Part shown: positions 1 to 14,641 of the stretch, one piece after another
Layout of the letters: each line of letters begins with the position of its first letter
How positions within the stretch are numbered: the first letter of the stretch is position 1
IMG/VR virus record: IMGVR_UViG_3300025769_000902
Coordinates: 1-22,966 of that record
DNA: 22,966 nucleotides
Origin: a virus
Reading direction: 5' to 3' (one strand)
Position numbers and translations under genes: made by a program
The notes under the pieces: generated by a model
The model's input: only the letters and a program-made list of their open reading frames with translations
Database searches by the model: none
Told to the model about the DNA's origin: nothing

Positions 1-1576
1 CTAATTCAGTTGTTAAATCTTCAATTTGTTTTTGTTGTTCATTAACAGCCTGTATAAGTAACGCTGTAAGTTTTTCATATTTAACAGCTTTATATCCATT
101 TCCTCTATCTTCTACAATTTCAGGAAGGACTTTTTCTACTTCTTGTGCTATAACTCCTACATCGTGTCCATTATGAACATGAATTCCTTCCATTGGTATC
201 CAATCAAAAGTATAACCTGTTAATTGTCCTACTTTTTCTGTAGCACTTCCGATTGGTTCTAAATTTTCTTTTAACCTTTCATCTGATGAAGCAAATGCTA
301 CAACATCATTTGTTGCTAATATAGCTCCTGCTACTCCTGATGGTGCTGTTCCAACTCCTAATCCATTAAATCTTACACTATCTCCAGTTTGTACATTTTG
401 GTTCATTAAATAAACCTCTGTAGCACCTTGTCCTGTATTAATGTTTCCTACTACTGTTAAAGTAGTTCCATCAAATGTTAGGTTTGTAGCTGCACTACCT
501 GATTGTGATTCAGATGTTGCTAATACTACTCTTTCTTGTGCATTATTGTTAACTACATACCCATCTACATTAGTTAAATCTTTACCATTACCTTGGAATG
601 AACCACTAAATGAACCTGAACCAGCTCTTGATAGAGTTGATATATCAGCAAACGAAGCAGTAGCTGTGGAACTTAAAGTTGAAGCTAAATCAGCAATTGA
701 AGATGAAGTTGCCCTATCAGCATGTGATGATGTTAATCCTGATCTAATTGTACCTGCTAAATCTGCGAATGATGATGTTGTAGCTCTATCTGCTATTGAT
801 GCAGTTGCATCAGAACTTAAAGTTGTAGCTCTTGCTGCTACTGATGCTGAATCTGCTTGGTCTGCAAATGAAGCAGATGTTATATTAACTACTGATGTTG
901 AAATAGCTAAGGAAGCTGTTTCAGCAAATGAGGCTGATATTACAGAACCTAATAATACAGATGCTGTATCAGCATTTGATGCTGTTCCCTCTAAATTACC
1001 TAAAAATTTAGTTGCTGAAAGTGTATCTGTGGATGGAACATATCCTAATCCACTATTAGTTTTTATTTCTGTTCTTGTTGTTAAACCATTAGAAAATAGT
1101 ATATAATGTCCTGCTCCACTACTATCTTCTTCTGTTACACTAAGTTGTGTAGAAACTGCAGCTATAGAAGCACTACTAGCATTATCTGCTTGTGAAGCAC
1201 TAACTGCTCTTTCAGAATTAGAGGCTGAATCTATTAAACCTTGGAATGAGCCACTAAATGAGCCACTCCAATATTCACTATTTGCAGAACCTGTAATTGT
1301 AACACTTCCTGTAAATTCATGTGTATCATCTAAAGTATCACCAAATTTTGTTGAACCAGAACTATATATAATAGAAGACGATTCATAGGAAGAAACTAAA
1401 TAATCAATAGAGGCTGTACCATTAATGTGAAGATTACCAGATATAAATTGACTTCCGGTAAGATTATAAGAACCACTTAAAGAATGAGTTCCTAAACCAT
1501 CTTGAATTAAAGTATCTTCTAATTGTAAAAGTTGATCGTAAGTCGACTTTATGGTTCTTCCAGTTAATGTAGCCAT
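1..1576 (-). CDS. Tail fibre protein with C-terminal S74 chaperone domain (3' end beyond window)
   Basis: This is an open frame of 525 codons starting at ATG 1576 and running off the left edge, so its C-terminus is missing. From about residue 431 it matches the peptidase S74 intramolecular chaperone: SSDERLKENLEPI, then TGYTFDW, then VGVIAQEVEKVLPEIV, then a predicted coiled segment QAVNEQQKQIEDL. S74 domains help trimeric fibres fold and then cut themselves off. The middle (about residues 190-320) is low in complexity and rich in Ala, Ser and Thr, with recurring S-F-A-D or S-I-A-D units. The segment SGSFSGSFQG occurs twice, once before and once after this repeat region. The protein most likely forms a host-binding fibre or spike. 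It begins just downstream of a terminator, so it probably has its own promoter. The S74 assignment is firm; the exact virion position is inferred. Confidence 0.9.
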   Translation of the reverse strand, partial: MATLTGRTIKSTYDQLLQLEDTLIQDGLGTHSLSGSYNLTGSQFISGNLHINGTASIDYLVSSYESSSIIYSSGSTKFGDTLDDTHEFTGSVTITGSANSEYWSGSFSGSFQGLIDSASNSERAVSASQADNASSASIAAVSTQLSVTEEDSSGAGHYILFSNGLTTRTEIKTNSGLGYVPSTDTLSATKFLGNLEGTASNADTASVLLGSVISASFAETASLAISTSVVNITSASFADQADSASVAARATTLSSDATASIADRATTSSFADLAGTIRSGLTSSHADRATSSSIADLASTLSSTATASFADISTLSRAGSGSFSGSFQGNGKDLTNVDGYVVNNNAQERVVLATSESQSGSAATNLTFDGTTLTVVGNINTGQGATEVYLMNQNVQTGDSVRFNGLGVGTAPSGVAGAILATNDVVAFASSDERLKENLEPIGSATEKVGQLTGYTFDWIPMEGIHVHNGHDVGVIAQEVEKVLPEIVEDRGNGYKAVKYEKLTALLIQAVNEQQKQIEDLTTEL

Positions 1577-2563: not shown

Positions 2564-2582
2564 AATTACTAATAAATAGTAG

Positions 2583-2655
2583 TGGCGGGGGGAGGACTTG
2601 AACCTCCGACCTCCGGGTTATGAGCCCGGCGAGCTACCTGCTGCTCCACCCCGCA
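2583..2655 (-). tRNA. Initiator tRNA-fMet (anticodon CAT)
   Basis: A complete 73-nt cloverleaf can be drawn by hand: D stem GAGC/GCTC, anticodon stem CCGGG/CCCGG around CTCATAA (anticodon at 2620-2622), a 5-base variable loop, and T stem GGAGG/CCTCC with loop TTCAAGT. The acceptor stem is paired at positions 2-7 and mismatched at 1:72 (T against C). The initiator hallmarks are present: unpaired 1:72, A11:T24 in the D stem, and three consecutive G:C pairs at 29-31/39-41. The discriminator base is A and the 3' CCA is not encoded. Confidence 0.93.
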
Positions 2656-2838: not shown

Positions 2839-3633
2839 TTACTCTGAGTATTCTGCAAGTAATTTTTCAACGTGTTTTCTTGCAACTTCGTAATCTACCG
2901 GCCCAGTTTCGTCTTCATATTGTACAGGGTCGTTGATGCCCAATTTAATGAATGCTTCAATTCTTTCCACTGAACTCGCTGATTTATAATCGCTATTACC
3001 GCTAGGGAAAGGTTTATAAGAAGTATTAGTACGTCTATATACTTCATCAAAATCAATTCCAAGGTCCTTAACAAGGATTTGTCCATCTTGTAATATTCCA
3101 AATTTATCTGTTTCTAAATAAGGTGTAAAGTAACCCACTGTCTCTGAGTTCCAGTTACCAATTCTAAATGCTGCATCATCAGCATCTCTAAATTCTTGTC
3201 TACAATCAGGGTAGATTGCGTGGTCACCAGCATGAATACCTAAAGCAATATCACAAGTTTCTTCTGTTTTATTTGCTATAGATAATGCTACTGCTTGTGT
3301 AATAGAAGCAAATATTTTATTTCTATTAGGCACTACAGTTGCAACCATATTTTTTTCTTCATAATGACCTTCCGGTACATCATTTCCTCCTTCTACAAGA
3401 TTTGAATCTAGTAAATTTACTAAACCATCTAATTTAATAACTTGATAATTTACATTTTGCCCATTTTCATTAACATAATTAATTAATGATTGAGCTCTTT
3501 CAAGTTCTACTCTATGCTTCTGACCATAATCAAAAGATAAAGCTGTTACATTATCATACTCAGATAAACATCTAAGTAATAAAGTTGAGGAATCCATCCC
3601 TCCAGATAAGGATACTACGACATTTTTTGCCAT
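2839..3633 (-). CDS. queC: QueC-like 7-cyano-7-deazaguanine synthase lacking the zinc cysteines
   Basis: The 264-aa protein has the PP-loop ATPase motif SGGMDSS (residues 10-16), FDYGQKH (34-40), VPNRN (101-105) and GIHAGDHAIYPDCRQEF (132-148), all typical of QueC. QueC converts 7-carboxy-7-deazaguanine to preQ0 via an amide intermediate, using ATP and ammonia. The family normally ends with four zinc-binding cysteines (SCY followed by CGxCxxC). Here that region (residues 202-228) reads TNTSYKPFPSG then NSDYKSASSVER: it aligns by spacing and by the following Arg, but contains no cysteine. Only Cys22, Cys127 and Cys144 exist in the protein. Fold and substrate class are clear; whether it goes all the way to preQ0 is uncertain. 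It is the last of the deazaguanine genes in the operon, eight bases after a small membrane-protein gene. Confidence 0.88.
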   Translation of the reverse strand: MAKNVVVSLSGGMDSSTLLLRCLSEYDNVTALSFDYGQKHRVELERAQSLINYVNENGQNVNYQVIKLDGLVNLLDSNLVEGGNDVPEGHYEEKNMVATVVPNRNKIFASITQAVALSIANKTEETCDIALGIHAGDHAIYPDCRQEFRDADDAAFRIGNWNSETVGYFTPYLETDKFGILQDGQILVKDLGIDFDEVYRRTNTSYKPFPSGNSDYKSASSVERIEAFIKLGINDPVQYEDETGPVDYEVARKHVEKLLAEYSE

Positions 3634-3641
3634 TTTTATAT

Positions 3642-3824
3642 CTATTTTAATTTTTGCCAGGTATTATTAAGCGTATAGGCAAACGCTTTAAATTTACATT
3701 TTATATATATTGCAATATAAGAAAAAATAGTTGATATCCCAACTCCACCTAATAAAAGGTGCCAAATATTTGGGTGAAAATGTTCACCACACATCCCACT
3801 AATATGTCTAATTATTTCTGCCAT
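3642..3824 (-). CDS. Small membrane protein with a CGEHFHP motif, 60 aa
   Basis: Its ATG overlaps the stop codon of the DpdA-like gene by one base (TAATG), so translation is probably coupled. Residues 11-21 read MCGEHFHPNIW, a Cys/His cluster that could bind metal. One hydrophobic helix follows (about residues 22-42), then a basic tail ending in QKLK. This predicts a single-pass inner-membrane protein with the basic end in the cytoplasm. I do not know its function. Its place between dpdA and queC may only reflect operon packing. Confidence 0.7.
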   Translation of the reverse strand: MAEIIRHISGMCGEHFHPNIWHLLLGGVGISTIFSYIAIYIKCKFKAFAYTLNNTWQKLK

Positions 3825-4588
3825 TATAAACCATTAATTGTTTTAAATCTTTTTACGTTTTTTAATATTTTATTATAATTAATTTTTTCAGGTTCAATAT
3901 CAAAGTGAGTATTCATATTTGCTTTTGGTTTTTCTATTAAACCACTTTTTGTATAAGGAATTCCTTCTAAAGCAGCCATTATAGGATTTGAAGTATCTAT
4001 TGATTCAATTTGAGATTCATTTCTATACCAACCAAACTCTTGAGGTACTGCACAACCTAACAAATGAAATTTAGTATCTTTATATCTTTTATCTTTTAAT
4101 AATTCTTTAACAAAATTTATTCTACCTAAAGCTTTATTTAAAGGAGTATCACCATACCAATCTGCACCATAAGATATACAAAGTTTATCATATCCTAAAT
4201 CTCTAATTAAACTAGCACATAAATGTGCTTTGATTTTATCTTCACCTTGTACTACAGCTACTATCTTTGTTTTTTTAGGATATTTAAATTGTATCCAATA
4301 TTTTGCTTGAGCACAAGTTTGGGCTTGTTTCATCCAAACATCTGGTACTATAAATTCATCTGGTTCTAATTCAGTTATCCAGTGTAGTAACCTTTCATGA
4401 TTATATGCTTTACCTAATTCATGAAGTGAATTATCCATAATAATGTAACGACCTTGTTTTTTAGATTCATAGAAGAAATTTTTATAATATTCATCTTCAT
4501 CTAAAAGATGAGGTAAACAATAATCATAATCATTAAATTCACGACTATTATTTAGTAAAACCTTTGGTACCTCGTGTGATATTTTCAT
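3824..4588 (-). CDS. dpdA: DpdA-like DNA guanine transglycosylase (TGT fold)
   Basis: The 254-aa protein looks like a short phage member of the tRNA-guanine transglycosylase superfamily that acts on DNA, swapping guanine for a 7-deazaguanine base. TGT-like elements occur in order: YIIMDNSLHELG (residues 48-59, with Asp52), FIVPDVW (79-85, with Asp83), VAVVQGE (110-116), LCISYG (136-141), HLLGCAVPQEF (175-185) and SIDTSNPIMAALEG (196-209). The C-x-C-x-x-C zinc site of tRNA-acting TGTs is absent, as expected for this group. It is coupled to the gene before it and the gene after it by TAATG overlaps, and flanked in the operon by queD and queC, which supports a DNA-modification role. Target sequence and the base inserted cannot be read from the sequence. 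Confidence 0.82.
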   Translation of the reverse strand: MKISHEVPKVLLNNSREFNDYDYCLPHLLDEDEYYKNFFYESKKQGRYIIMDNSLHELGKAYNHERLLHWITELEPDEFIVPDVWMKQAQTCAQAKYWIQFKYPKKTKIVAVVQGEDKIKAHLCASLIRDLGYDKLCISYGADWYGDTPLNKALGRINFVKELLKDKRYKDTKFHLLGCAVPQEFGWYRNESQIESIDTSNPIMAALEGIPYTKSGLIEKPKANMNTHFDIEPEKINYNKILKNVKRFKTINGL

Positions 4589-5295
4589 TAATAACCTGTT
4601 AAATTATTTTTTATTTCTTTTAATATACGACTATTATATTTCTTTTCCAAAAATAGATTATACAGTGTTTTTAAAGGTAAGAATTTTTTAAAATTTTTTA
4701 TACCCATAGTTGAATTTAAATATGTTCCTAATTGATTATTAAATTGATAATTTACTAAATTTATTTTTTTATTAGTATTAAATTTTAAATAATAAAGAGT
4801 ATCTCCTCTTTTAATATTAATTATATTTTTATGAGAAACATATGCGGGACTTATAGGTCTAAACCACTTCCCACAATCATATTTACCACTTAATAATGTA
4901 GTATTTTTAGTTAAATCATTAGGATCTAAATAAGCAGGTAATAATGATACTTCAAGAGGTTGATCACTAAAAAATATATAATTACTATTAATATCAAAAA
5001 ACTTTTCATTTATAGATCTTAAACTTATATGCCCCTCACGATTAAGTTGGTGTAAATTTTCATTACCTTCTTTAAGTTCTATATTATAATCTTGATCTGA
5101 TCTTATTCCTATTACATTTTTTAATTCATTGTAAGAAGCAGGACATTGGATATACCCAAGTAAAGATGAAGATGGATATTTTTTAAATTCAGTTTTTATA
5201 TTTTTATAAACTGAAAAAGGTTGGTAAGTAAGGAGATCTTTTGATGTTAAAAGAGGTAAATTTATTCTACTCCAATATACTGTAATACTTTTCAC
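4588..5295 (-). CDS. Conserved phage protein of unknown function within the deazaguanine operon, 235 aa
   Basis: Translation starts at GTG 5295, overlapping the queD stop by one base (TAGTG), and ends with a TAATG overlap into dpdA. Recognisable blocks are NYIFFSDQPLEVSLLPAYLD, then SGKYDCGKWFRPISPAY, then RGDTLYYLKFNT. From memory, the pattern of a WFRP motif followed by a YLKF strand occurs in proteins of unknown function in many marine T4-like phages. The gene is clearly more AT-rich than its neighbours: one sampled 60-base line (4741-4800) has 5 G+C, against 23 in queD (5581-5640) and 19 in dpdA (4141-4200). No catalytic motif is recognised. A role in DNA modification is only a guess from position. 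Confidence 0.75.
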   Translation of the reverse strand: MKSITVYWSRINLPLLTSKDLLTYQPFSVYKNIKTEFKKYPSSSLLGYIQCPASYNELKNVIGIRSDQDYNIELKEGNENLHQLNREGHISLRSINEKFFDINSNYIFFSDQPLEVSLLPAYLDPNDLTKNTTLLSGKYDCGKWFRPISPAYVSHKNIINIKRGDTLYYLKFNTNKKINLVNYQFNNQLGTYLNSTMGIKNFKKFLPLKTLYNLFLEKKYNSRILKEIKNNLTGY

Positions 5296-5810
5296 TATAA
5301 ATCTTTAAGATTACTTAAAATTGATTCTAATTTTTCATTTGAAGATGCTGCCTCGTATATAGCAGAGTTTTTACCATGTTCTCTAAATTCTACTCTTATA
5401 ATTTTTACTCTTCCATCAGTTTCTTCTTGAATAAATGGATTTACTTTATCATAAATAAATTGAGCGAATTTTTCAGCTCCAACAGCTGGTATAACTCTTA
5501 CTTGAGCGGCACCATGTTTTTCCATTGATTGGAATGATTCTACAAATGGATCATCTTCTGCTACTATAACAGTATGATCAAACATATAGTCCATCCATTC
5601 TTTAGGAGACATCCCATCGATTTGTCCTTTAGCTCTTTTCATTCCTCCAAAGTCCCAAACCCAGTTTTTTTCATCTAATTCTCCTTCAAACCATAGTTTG
5701 AATGATACCCCATAACCATGGAGGTATTTACAGTGTGTTTCTTCAGCTTTCCATTGTCTAAATACACAACTAAAGCCGTCAAAGATTTTTGTTGATTGAA
5801 ATTTACCCAT
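5295..5810 (-). CDS. queD: QueD-like 6-carboxytetrahydropterin synthase (divergent subfamily)
   Basis: The 171-aa protein belongs to the PTPS/QueD fold, which makes 6-carboxytetrahydropterin from dihydroneopterin triphosphate for 7-deazaguanine synthesis. The catalytic Cys27 (THCKYLHGY), the Asp78-His79 pair (FDHT) and the late Glu-rich strand (VEFREHG) are in place. Of the three zinc histidines of classical QueD, only His31 remains. The first (FSAAH in the family) is Phe17 in FSCVF, and the second His of HGH is Tyr33 in HGY. The unusual FRQW (17-20) and WDFGGMKRAKG (52-62) blocks mark a distinct subfamily. The gene overlaps the thioredoxin gene by 8 bases and is followed by a coupled unknown gene and dpdA. 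A folE and a queE gene are not in this window. Confidence 0.85.
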   Translation of the reverse strand: MGKFQSTKIFDGFSCVFRQWKAEETHCKYLHGYGVSFKLWFEGELDEKNWVWDFGGMKRAKGQIDGMSPKEWMDYMFDHTVIVAEDDPFVESFQSMEKHGAAQVRVIPAVGAEKFAQFIYDKVNPFIQEETDGRVKIIRVEFREHGKNSAIYEAASSNEKLESILSNLKDL

Positions 5811-6048
5811 TATAAAAATTTAAAATTGTTTCTTTTGTTTGTGCTCCTACTAATCTACCAACCTCATTTCCGTTCTCCACAAGTACTAATGAAGGAACAC
5901 CTCTAACTCCATATTGGGCTGATAAATCAGTGTTTGTATCAACATCGATTTTATCGAAATTAATTTGTCCTTGTAATGAATCCATTACAGGACTTAATGC
6001 TTTACATGGGGCACACCATGCTGCTGTAAAATATAAAATTTTTCTCAT
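5803..6048 (-). CDS. Minimal thioredoxin
   Basis: The 81-aa protein has the redox motif WCAPCK (residues 11-16) and the cis-proline motif GVPSL (50-54), with the DVDTN strand between them. It is shorter than the usual 105-110 residues and begins directly at the beta strand before the active site, so the first strand and helix of thioredoxin are missing. It could reduce the phage NrdA, whose C-terminus carries a CxxC pair, or serve another phage enzyme. It lies at the head of the deazaguanine genes and overlaps queD by 8 bases. The family is certain; the client is inferred. Confidence 0.9.
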   Translation of the reverse strand: MRKILYFTAAWCAPCKALSPVMDSLQGQINFDKIDVDTNTDLSAQYGVRGVPSLVLVENGNEVGRLVGAQTKETILNFYNG

Positions 6049-7792: not shown

Positions 7793-9205
7793 TTAGTTAT
7801 AATGTTCTTGCAAATCTTTTAAATATTTTATTGGATCTATATTTGAAGGTAAATTTTGTATAGAAGGAACTAAATTTGCAAATTGAATTAAGGTATAATA
7901 CCAAGAATGATCAGAAAAAATACTTGTTGGATTATGAAATGAAGGATTATATGGAATAGTATTTGCAACATCTATCCTAAGTTTTAATGATTTTGAAATA
8001 TTTTTTGTAATATGGGTTTTACTATAATTCCAAAAAGGAGTATTATGATTATTATTTAAATAATGTATTGATATAAAGTCAAAAGTATCTGAGTATAATT
8101 CATTTAATTTTAAATTATATACTGTTTTATTTTCAGAACTAACCCATCCTTTTTTTATTAGGTAGTGGATAGTTCTAACTCCTTCTATTATAAACTGTAT
8201 TCCTGTTGATTCTAAAGGTTCTATAAATCCGGAGGATAATCCTATATCAACTACATTACCCTCCCATTGATTAGAATAATATCCTGATTTATATTCTATA
8301 TATTTTGTGTTTTGGTTTAATAAATTGTCTTTACCCCAATAATTTTCATACCAGGTAATAACTTCATCCTTATTTGAAATATCTTTATTAAAAACCATAC
8401 CTGAACCTATTCTAGATTGTAGGGGTGTTTTCCAAATCCATCCATAAGGTGTACACTGAGCTACAGTATAGGGAGTTTTTAAAGATTGTTTTGAATTATA
8501 TGAAGCAGGGTTAAAGATAGCAGCATTATTTGGGGTAGAATTTGATTTATCTATAAAAATTTTTTGTTGTTTTTTTGATAAAATATTATCAAATCCTAAA
8601 CAATTAATATAAAGATCTGATTTGTGATATTGATTTGAACTTAATAAAAGATTAGAAATATCTTTTTGATTAAAATCTATATCAATTATATCTTCATTTA
8701 TAATATTAATTTTAATATTATTTTTTATAAATTCAGATAATTTTCCAGAGTTAATATGTACCCCTTGATTAGATTTTGGGGGTTGATTTTTAATTACACA
8801 TTGTTTATAATCATTTATATATTTAATAAAGTCTGATTTAGGTAGATTAGAAGAAAAAAATAAATCAAAAATATTATATATTTTATTATCTTTATTAAAA
8901 TGGGGTATAGCTCCAAAAGGATGCCATTGAAAACTATTTTTATTAATCCAGTCTTTATACCCAACCCCTGCTTTTTCAGTGCATTCACAAAAATCATACC
9001 ATTGTTGTTTTGAAAAACCACACTCTTCTATAAATTTGGAAAAATCAGGTAATGTAGATTCTCCTACTCCAATACTTTTATCTGATTTTCCTTTAATTAT
9101 ATATAATTCAAAATAGTTTTTAGGTAAATTTTTTGATAAATAAGCAGCAGTTAACCAAGCGGATGTTCCTCCCCCAAGTATAGAAATTTTTTTAACTAAC
9201 CCCAT
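7793..9205 (-). CDS. Flavin-dependent tryptophan-halogenase-like enzyme
   Basis: The 470-aa protein has the family hallmarks: FAD-binding GGGTSAW (residues 11-17), VGESTLPDF (47-55), a lysine at 78 (TEKAGVGYKDW) aligning with the catalytic Lys79 of PrnA/RebH, GWIWKTP (255-261) matching the WxWxIP signature, and IEPLESTGIQF (328-338) with Glu332 matching the catalytic Glu346. Such enzymes use reduced FAD, oxygen and halide to halogenate tryptophan or other indole and aromatic substrates. Size is slightly below the usual 500-540. A gene of this type is, from memory, recurrent in marine T4-like phages, with unknown substrate. It is coupled (TAATG) to an unknown gene upstream. No flavin reductase is seen here. 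Base composition is very AT-rich (8 G+C in 8641-8700). Confidence 0.9.
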   Translation of the reverse strand: MGLVKKISILGGGTSAWLTAAYLSKNLPKNYFELYIIKGKSDKSIGVGESTLPDFSKFIEECGFSKQQWYDFCECTEKAGVGYKDWINKNSFQWHPFGAIPHFNKDNKIYNIFDLFFSSNLPKSDFIKYINDYKQCVIKNQPPKSNQGVHINSGKLSEFIKNNIKINIINEDIIDIDFNQKDISNLLLSSNQYHKSDLYINCLGFDNILSKKQQKIFIDKSNSTPNNAAIFNPASYNSKQSLKTPYTVAQCTPYGWIWKTPLQSRIGSGMVFNKDISNKDEVITWYENYWGKDNLLNQNTKYIEYKSGYYSNQWEGNVVDIGLSSGFIEPLESTGIQFIIEGVRTIHYLIKKGWVSSENKTVYNLKLNELYSDTFDFISIHYLNNNHNTPFWNYSKTHITKNISKSLKLRIDVANTIPYNPSFHNPTSIFSDHSWYYTLIQFANLVPSIQNLPSNIDPIKYLKDLQEHYN

Positions 9206-14131: not shown

Positions 14132-14641
14132 TTAAGCTATTTTAAAATTAAAAGCAATTGAAATTCTATCCTGATTTTCCATATTAGCATCAACACTATG
14201 AGGAAGACTTGAAGGAAAAAAGATTAAGGTACCTGGGGTAAAATAAAAATGGTGGTGTAAATCAGTATCCCAAGGTGAGTAGATAGTTATAGGTCCACTA
14301 TTTTTAAAAGTTTGTAAATAATAAACTCCTGACCACATATTAGGTTCTTTTCCATGGTGATGAATTGCATTATAATGGTATTTAGAAGAAACATTTCCCC
14401 ATATCTCAAATAAATTAATATTAGTATTGAATGTTTCAGAAGCAATTTTTAATATAGTTTCTTTAAAAAATTGGAAATCTTTATTACAAAGTAAATCTTC
14501 AGATTGCCATCCTCCTTTATTACTTACTTTTACACCTAAAGAAGTATCTTTTATTTTATATAAACTTTTTATAAGAGAATTATTATCTATATTTACGTTA
14601 GTAGCATATAATTCTATAGGAAATAAATAAGTTTTTTTCAT
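14132..14641 (-). CDS. 2OG-Fe(II) oxygenase-like protein
   Basis: The 169-aa protein matches the short phage/bacterial 2OG-Fe(II) oxygenase family often labelled TIGR02466. It contains a histidine cluster at HYNAIHHHG (89-97), SGVYYLQTF (104-112), GPITIYSPW, a TPGTLIFFPSSLPHSV block (135-150) with the distal His148, and Arg159 in RISIAFNF for the 2-oxoglutarate carboxylate. These enzymes hydroxylate substrates using oxygen and 2-oxoglutarate; the substrate of the phage versions is unknown. It is squeezed between the nuclease gene (ATGA overlap) and the helicase gene. Family call is good; role is open. Confidence 0.82.
   Translation of the reverse strand: MKKTYLFPIELYATNVNIDNNSLIKSLYKIKDTSLGVKVSNKGGWQSEDLLCNKDFQFFKETILKIASETFNTNINLFEIWGNVSSKYHYNAIHHHGKEPNMWSGVYYLQTFKNSGPITIYSPWDTDLHHHFYFTPGTLIFFPSSLPHSVDANMENQDRISIAFNFKIA

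Follow-up and report, generated by a model that had tools for sequence, protein, structure and literature searches.

The window analysed here is an entire IMG/VR record (22,966 bases); it represents part of a tailed phage genome and includes ribonucleotide reductase genes. On its minus strand, at 2839..3633, we identified a QueC of 264 aa that is cysteine-less at the zinc site, and that we predict to be a zinc-site-free preQ0 synthase. The reading frame has an ATG start, 264 codons and no frameshift, and stops are numerous on the plus strand of the same stretch. The gene is part of a minus-strand cluster in the order QueD, an ORF, DpdA, a small ORF and QueC. QueD (6-carboxytetrahydropterin synthase; 5295..5810) matches Pfam PTPS with 52 bits and phrog_2389 QueD with 146 bits. 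The ORF between QueD and DpdA (4588-5295) has a weak phrog_17480 match and no counterpart in the rest of the phage loci retrieved; ORFs related to the small one between DpdA and QueC (3642..3824) lie near QueC in 30 of the 81 relatives examined. A thioredoxin-like protein (5803..6048, minus strand; Pfam thioredoxin, 71 bits) is likewise often near QueC in relatives.

The product of 3824..4588 is a DpdA-type DNA-guanine transglycosylase, which we call type I; its TGT-like barrel is similar to that of the DNA preQ0 insertase. Its AlphaFold2 model (pLDDT 95.7) has the DNA preQ0 insertase DpdA 7ui4 as its top Foldseek match and aligns by VIA with the archaeosine TGT 1iq8 at Z 17.3. Profile matches to DpdA were weak, and when the DpdA profile was run against PDB sequences only weak matches came back, to unrelated chains and designed TIM barrels, so that the assignment is based on structure comparison. 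QueE was not found in the 22,966-base fragment, and neither was FolE; in relatives both lie a few kilobases from QueC. Among the 81 relatives, a QueE-like gene is present in 58 and QueD in 61, so that the QueD and QueE neighbourhood typical of QueC is seen in the window for QueD and in relatives for both.

Elsewhere in the window we noted a tRNA-Met (CAT) downstream of QueC (2582-2655, minus strand), a flavin-dependent tryptophan-halogenase-like protein (7793-9205, minus strand; Pfam PF04820, 240 bits) and a putative 2OG-Fe(II) oxygenase (14132-14641, minus strand; PF13759, 50 bits). An open-ended ORF at 2-1576 (minus strand) has the look of a tail fibre, and its C-terminal part (DERLKENLEPIG...) resembles, by eye, an intramolecular chaperone domain.

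The window QueC matches Pfam PF06508 with 127.1 bits over residues 5-230, above the gathering score of 22 bits. Against the NCBIfam equivalog TIGR00364 it scores 123.8 bits, under the cut-off of 150.3, as do four further zinc-site-less QueCs that we scanned (121.6-140.9 bits). Its only cysteines are residues 22, 127 and 144, of which C144 is the cysteine of the YPDC motif and no zinc ligand; residues 202-228 contain none, and the C(x)8CxxCxxC motif of canonical QueC is absent. In the alignment with canonical QueCs the former zinc segment is R201-R224 (RTNTSYKPFPSGNSDYKSASSVER; 2962..3033, minus strand), the four zinc positions are occupied by S205, D215, S218 and S221, and the register across the segment is kept by R224 and F228. 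The SGGMDS pyrophosphate loop (residues 10-15; 3589..3606, minus strand) and the DYGQKHRVE, VPNRN and YPDC motifs are all intact, and the canonical motif residues Y36/Q38/H40/E43, V101/P102/R104/N105, Y141-C144 and Y206 are present. The first-pass annotation had described a QueC homologue that has lost all four zinc cysteines, with the PP-loop and substrate blocks intact and the alignment held by a downstream Arg and Phe, and in each of these respects its description is confirmed.

We investigated the distribution of this form in phages and cellular organisms. The phage-type set comprises 83 sequences: the window itself, our own copy of it (L002), Flavobacterium phage immuto 2-6A and 80 IMG/VR contigs, the last being the best 80 loci of an IMG/VR scan, 68-84% identical to the window QueC. 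In all 83 the segment is free of cysteine and consists of TNTSYKP and SDYKSASSVER joined by a loop whose length varies, and this shared sequence indicates that the loss is neither chance nor sequencing error. The QueC of immuto 2-6A (QQO91707), a cultured phage, is 71% identical to that of the window, with the same segment and the same kind of pathway genes. In the other GenBank phage QueCs examined CxxCxxC is kept in most, including that of Campylobacter phage CPt10. A scan of bacterial and archaeal genomes placed the nearest cellular QueCs at 43-54% identity, except for one phage-like contig at 76%, and these too lack the zinc site, with a segment TNTSYNPD..GRSSGKSGADVERILAF or similar. The carriers are Poseidoniales archaea, marine Planctomycetes and the gammaproteobacteria Facilibium subflavum and Thiotrichales 19S9-11, in which the gene is chromosomal. 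Many of the Poseidoniales QueCs (L107, L108, L113, L117, L119, L123, L135, L147 and others) additionally end in a domain of methionine sulfoxide reductase B (TIGR00357; L107 scores 172 bits), giving a cluster order of FolE-QueE-QueC-MsrB-QueD.

The zinc-site-less clade thus defined has 140 members, 83 phage-type and 57 cellular. The residues at the four old ligand sites are SDSS in 85 of the 140 and SSSD in 30, the remainder showing other mixtures of Ser, Asp, Thr and His, and a single member (L130) retains the first zinc cysteine. Three sister sequences (L114, L150 and L161) have identical spacing with all four cysteines present, and in a maximum-likelihood tree 69 zinc-site-less sequences form one group adjoining these sisters. 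L161 lies on a Spirochaetia contig, which may be phage or prophage, beside a DpdA of the window family and QueF.

The same tree requires a second, independent loss of the cysteines in Iggyvirus, the Rhizobium phage RHEph26 and two contigs (L097:1501-2562, L094:1480-2316, L179 and L180). These QueCs resemble the window form in lacking all four cysteines and in standing alongside FolE, QueD and QueE (Iggy also with DpdA), although the replacement segment is a different one, SHTSYDG.YPPT..NHSNLLRA. Iggy QueC is, in addition, extended at its C-terminus by about 100 residues. According to Olsen et al. 2023 (as cited in PMC11008142 and PMC11945000), dPreQ0 is present in the DNA of Pseudomonas phage Iggy; this is support but not proof for preQ0 synthesis by such an enzyme, since the host can be expected to make preQ0 too.

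We found that the catalytic apparatus is retained throughout the clade. The residues reported as needed in E. coli QueC by mutagenesis, Y35, R99, Y131 and Y189 (PMC13329287), correspond to Y36, R104, Y141 and Y206 of the window protein and are conserved in 140 of 140 members, as are SGGxDS, Q38, H40, E43 and the lysine K177. Y206 is the essential tyrosine of the zinc segment itself. The five scored pyrophosphate-loop residues are invariant in all 140 members and in every canonical QueC aligned, and in the alignment none of the known active-site residues distinguishes the clade from canonical QueC.

The AlphaFold2 model of the window QueC (pLDDT 94.6) aligns by VIA with the QueC structures 2pg3 (Erwinia) and 3bl5 (B. 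subtilis) at Z 18.5-19.0 and rmsd 2.6-2.7 over 186-191 residues, with Cap9 at Z 19.4 and with QatC at Z 17.8. The aligned ranges against QueC and Cap9 structures end at model residue 234-235, and the former zinc segment therefore lies inside the matched span. The window form thus shares with canonical QueC the fold, the PP-loop, the CDG- and ATP-binding motifs, the zinc-segment tyrosine and a gene context with QueD, QueE and FolE, but differs in having S/D/S/S for the cysteines, a longer C-terminus and a sub-equivalog score. We considered whether other metal ligands occupy the old positions, but the SDSS, SSSD and mixed Ser-Asp-Thr-His patterns of the 140 sequences resemble no four-ligand site; the missing ligands suggest that the segment holds no metal.

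Function without zinc ligands has precedents in zinc-free paralogs, among them FolE2, DksA2 and ribosomal proteins that lack the cysteines. Such paralogs are as a rule second copies switched on when zinc is scarce, whereas here the zinc-site-less form is the sole full-length copy. Zinc sparing is not favoured as the driver of the loss: QueD and a FolE akin to GTP cyclohydrolase I, both of them zinc enzymes, remain in the clusters of the phages and of Poseidoniales, so the pathway is not zinc-free.

The cellular genomes, mostly MAGs, bear on the product. Among the 30 genomes searched, the zinc-site-less form occurs in 27, each of which contains one full-length QueC. Twelve of these 27 (10 Planctomycetes, Facilibium subflavum and Thiotrichales 19S9-11) also contain QueF, QueA and QueD, and Tgt was seen in 11 of the 12. 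In Poseidoniales most loci have the zinc-site-less QueC in a FolE-QueE-QueC-QueD cluster, and TGT was present in all but one of the archaeal genomes searched. QueF reduces the nitrile preQ0, archaeal Tgt uses preQ0, and we know of no established route to the QueF product from ADG, CDG or 7-deazaguanine. Thus, as the sole full-length QueC in genomes with a QueF that needs the nitrile, the zinc-site-less enzyme would make preQ0, unless all these organisms live by salvage; in some of the hosts QueF might in principle be supplied by salvage of preQ0 or preQ1.

Evidence in the same direction comes from phages. QueF is encoded by immuto 2-6A (TIGR03138, 263 bits) and on the long contigs of L008, L022, L034 and L076 (the QueCs of these four share 75-83% identity with that of the window), and the C...QPD active-site motif is kept in immuto QueF and in the L196 copy. 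Unlike the window, the immuto cluster adds QueF and a PurN-like formyltransferase, and its DpdA is of a different subtype. The zinc-site-less QueC indeed occurs with two DpdA subtypes, that of the window (3824-4588) and that of L197:4090-4884. In the fetched DNA, QueF was found only with the second DpdA subtype and the PurN-like formyltransferase, or where no DpdA was in reach, and never with the type I DpdA. The QueC tree calls for six or more changes from one DpdA arrangement to the other, so that a single kind of QueC works with both, of which the second requires the nitrile.

We consider it very probable that the window gene encodes a working preQ0 synthase in which a metal-free packing of Ser, Asp and Tyr stands in for the zinc knuckle, and that DpdA inserts its product into phage DNA. 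The enzyme would adenylate CDG with ATP, form the amide ADG with ammonia, and then activate and dehydrate this amide to the nitrile preQ0, in the manner of canonical QueC. The Ser/Asp/Tyr-based packing would replace the Zn(Cys)4 knuckle near the C-terminal end and still position the essential tyrosine, Y206 in the window protein and Y189 in E. coli QueC. The neighbouring DpdA would then put preQ0 into phage DNA as dPreQ0. The window lineage has no QueF, and dPreQ0 is accordingly the base predicted in the virion DNA of this phage, the nitrile product in that lineage resting on homology. The first-pass annotation had offered two readings of the cysteine loss, structural compensation and a halt at another step yielding a different DNA base. 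The former is supported by the confident QueC-fold model through the former zinc segment, by the conserved new segment and by the retained catalytic residues. The latter is not borne out, given the sole full-length QueCs beside QueF/QueA or archaeal-type Tgt, and the QueF genes of phages with closely similar QueCs.

One form of the latter reading is that the enzyme stops at the amide, converting CDG to ADG, which DpdA would insert to give dADG in phage DNA. ADG is an on-path intermediate of QueC (PMC13329287), and the context of the window lineage, without QueF, itself demands no nitrile. This reading is nevertheless improbable in view of the QueF-bearing genomes of its 75-83% identical relatives, the clade's position as sole full-length QueC in queuosine-type organisms and the lack of any known active-site residue that sets the clade apart. 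Moreover, Campylobacter phage CPt10, cited with complete replacement of dG by dADG (PMC8306585), has a four-cysteine QueC, indicating that loss of the cysteines and use of the amide base do not go together. It is similarly improbable that the two arrangements differ in product, with the QueC of QueF-less type I systems tuned to supply the type I DpdA with ADG or some other base that is not a nitrile, and QueF-bearing relatives making preQ0.

A decarboxylase acting on CDG is said to have been named DpdL by Cui and colleagues in 2023 and predicted in some phages, and the window protein might be proposed to have this activity, giving 7-deazaguanine. We regard this as very unlikely: the ATP-binding, CDG-binding and other catalytic residues that are kept would not obviously be needed by a decarboxylase, the QueF and PurN-like formyltransferase of immuto fit a route from preQ0 through preQ1 to formyl-preQ1, and in the cellular genomes where a clade member accompanies QueF no other full-length QueC is present. 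Less likely still is a protein-modifying enzyme that joins CDG to a partner protein, like Cap9 of type IV CBASS or QatC. These share the QueC-family fold, their matches to the window model being about equal to those of QueC, and Cap9 has QueC-like substrate motifs; however, both act on a partner protein and retain zinc cysteines. QatC, with C(x)19CGxCxxRR, lacks YxQxHxxE, VPxRN and YPDC, whereas the window QueC has all three and no cysteine motif. The neighbours QueD, QueE, FolE and DpdA form the preQ0 pathway, and PADLOC gave only a generic 46-bit QueC match, and on motifs and neighbours we reject such a function. Finally, a degenerate, inactive QueC retained for another role, which might be suggested by the loss of a motif regarded as the family hallmark, is hardly credible, as the catalytic residues are invariant and so is the new segment in the 83 phage-type sequences, a pattern unlike decay.

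A 2026 survey of the QueC family (PMC13329287) treats the Zn(Cys)4 site as a hallmark that is required for function, and in its main text we found no mention of a cysteine-less group within canonical QueC. Our data indicate that this site is not universal in QueC, and it is most likely dispensable. The clade spans marine archaea, Planctomycetes, gammaproteobacteria and phages with all catalytic residues in place, a pattern that favours a structural metal for which a substitute can be found. A further caution is that the TIGR00364 equivalog cut-off misses probable preQ0 synthases, and that the bases of phage DNA should not be predicted from loss of the zinc site. The natural pairs of zinc and zinc-free enzymes, including the sisters L114, L150 and L161 with the same spacing, make the role of the metal directly testable.
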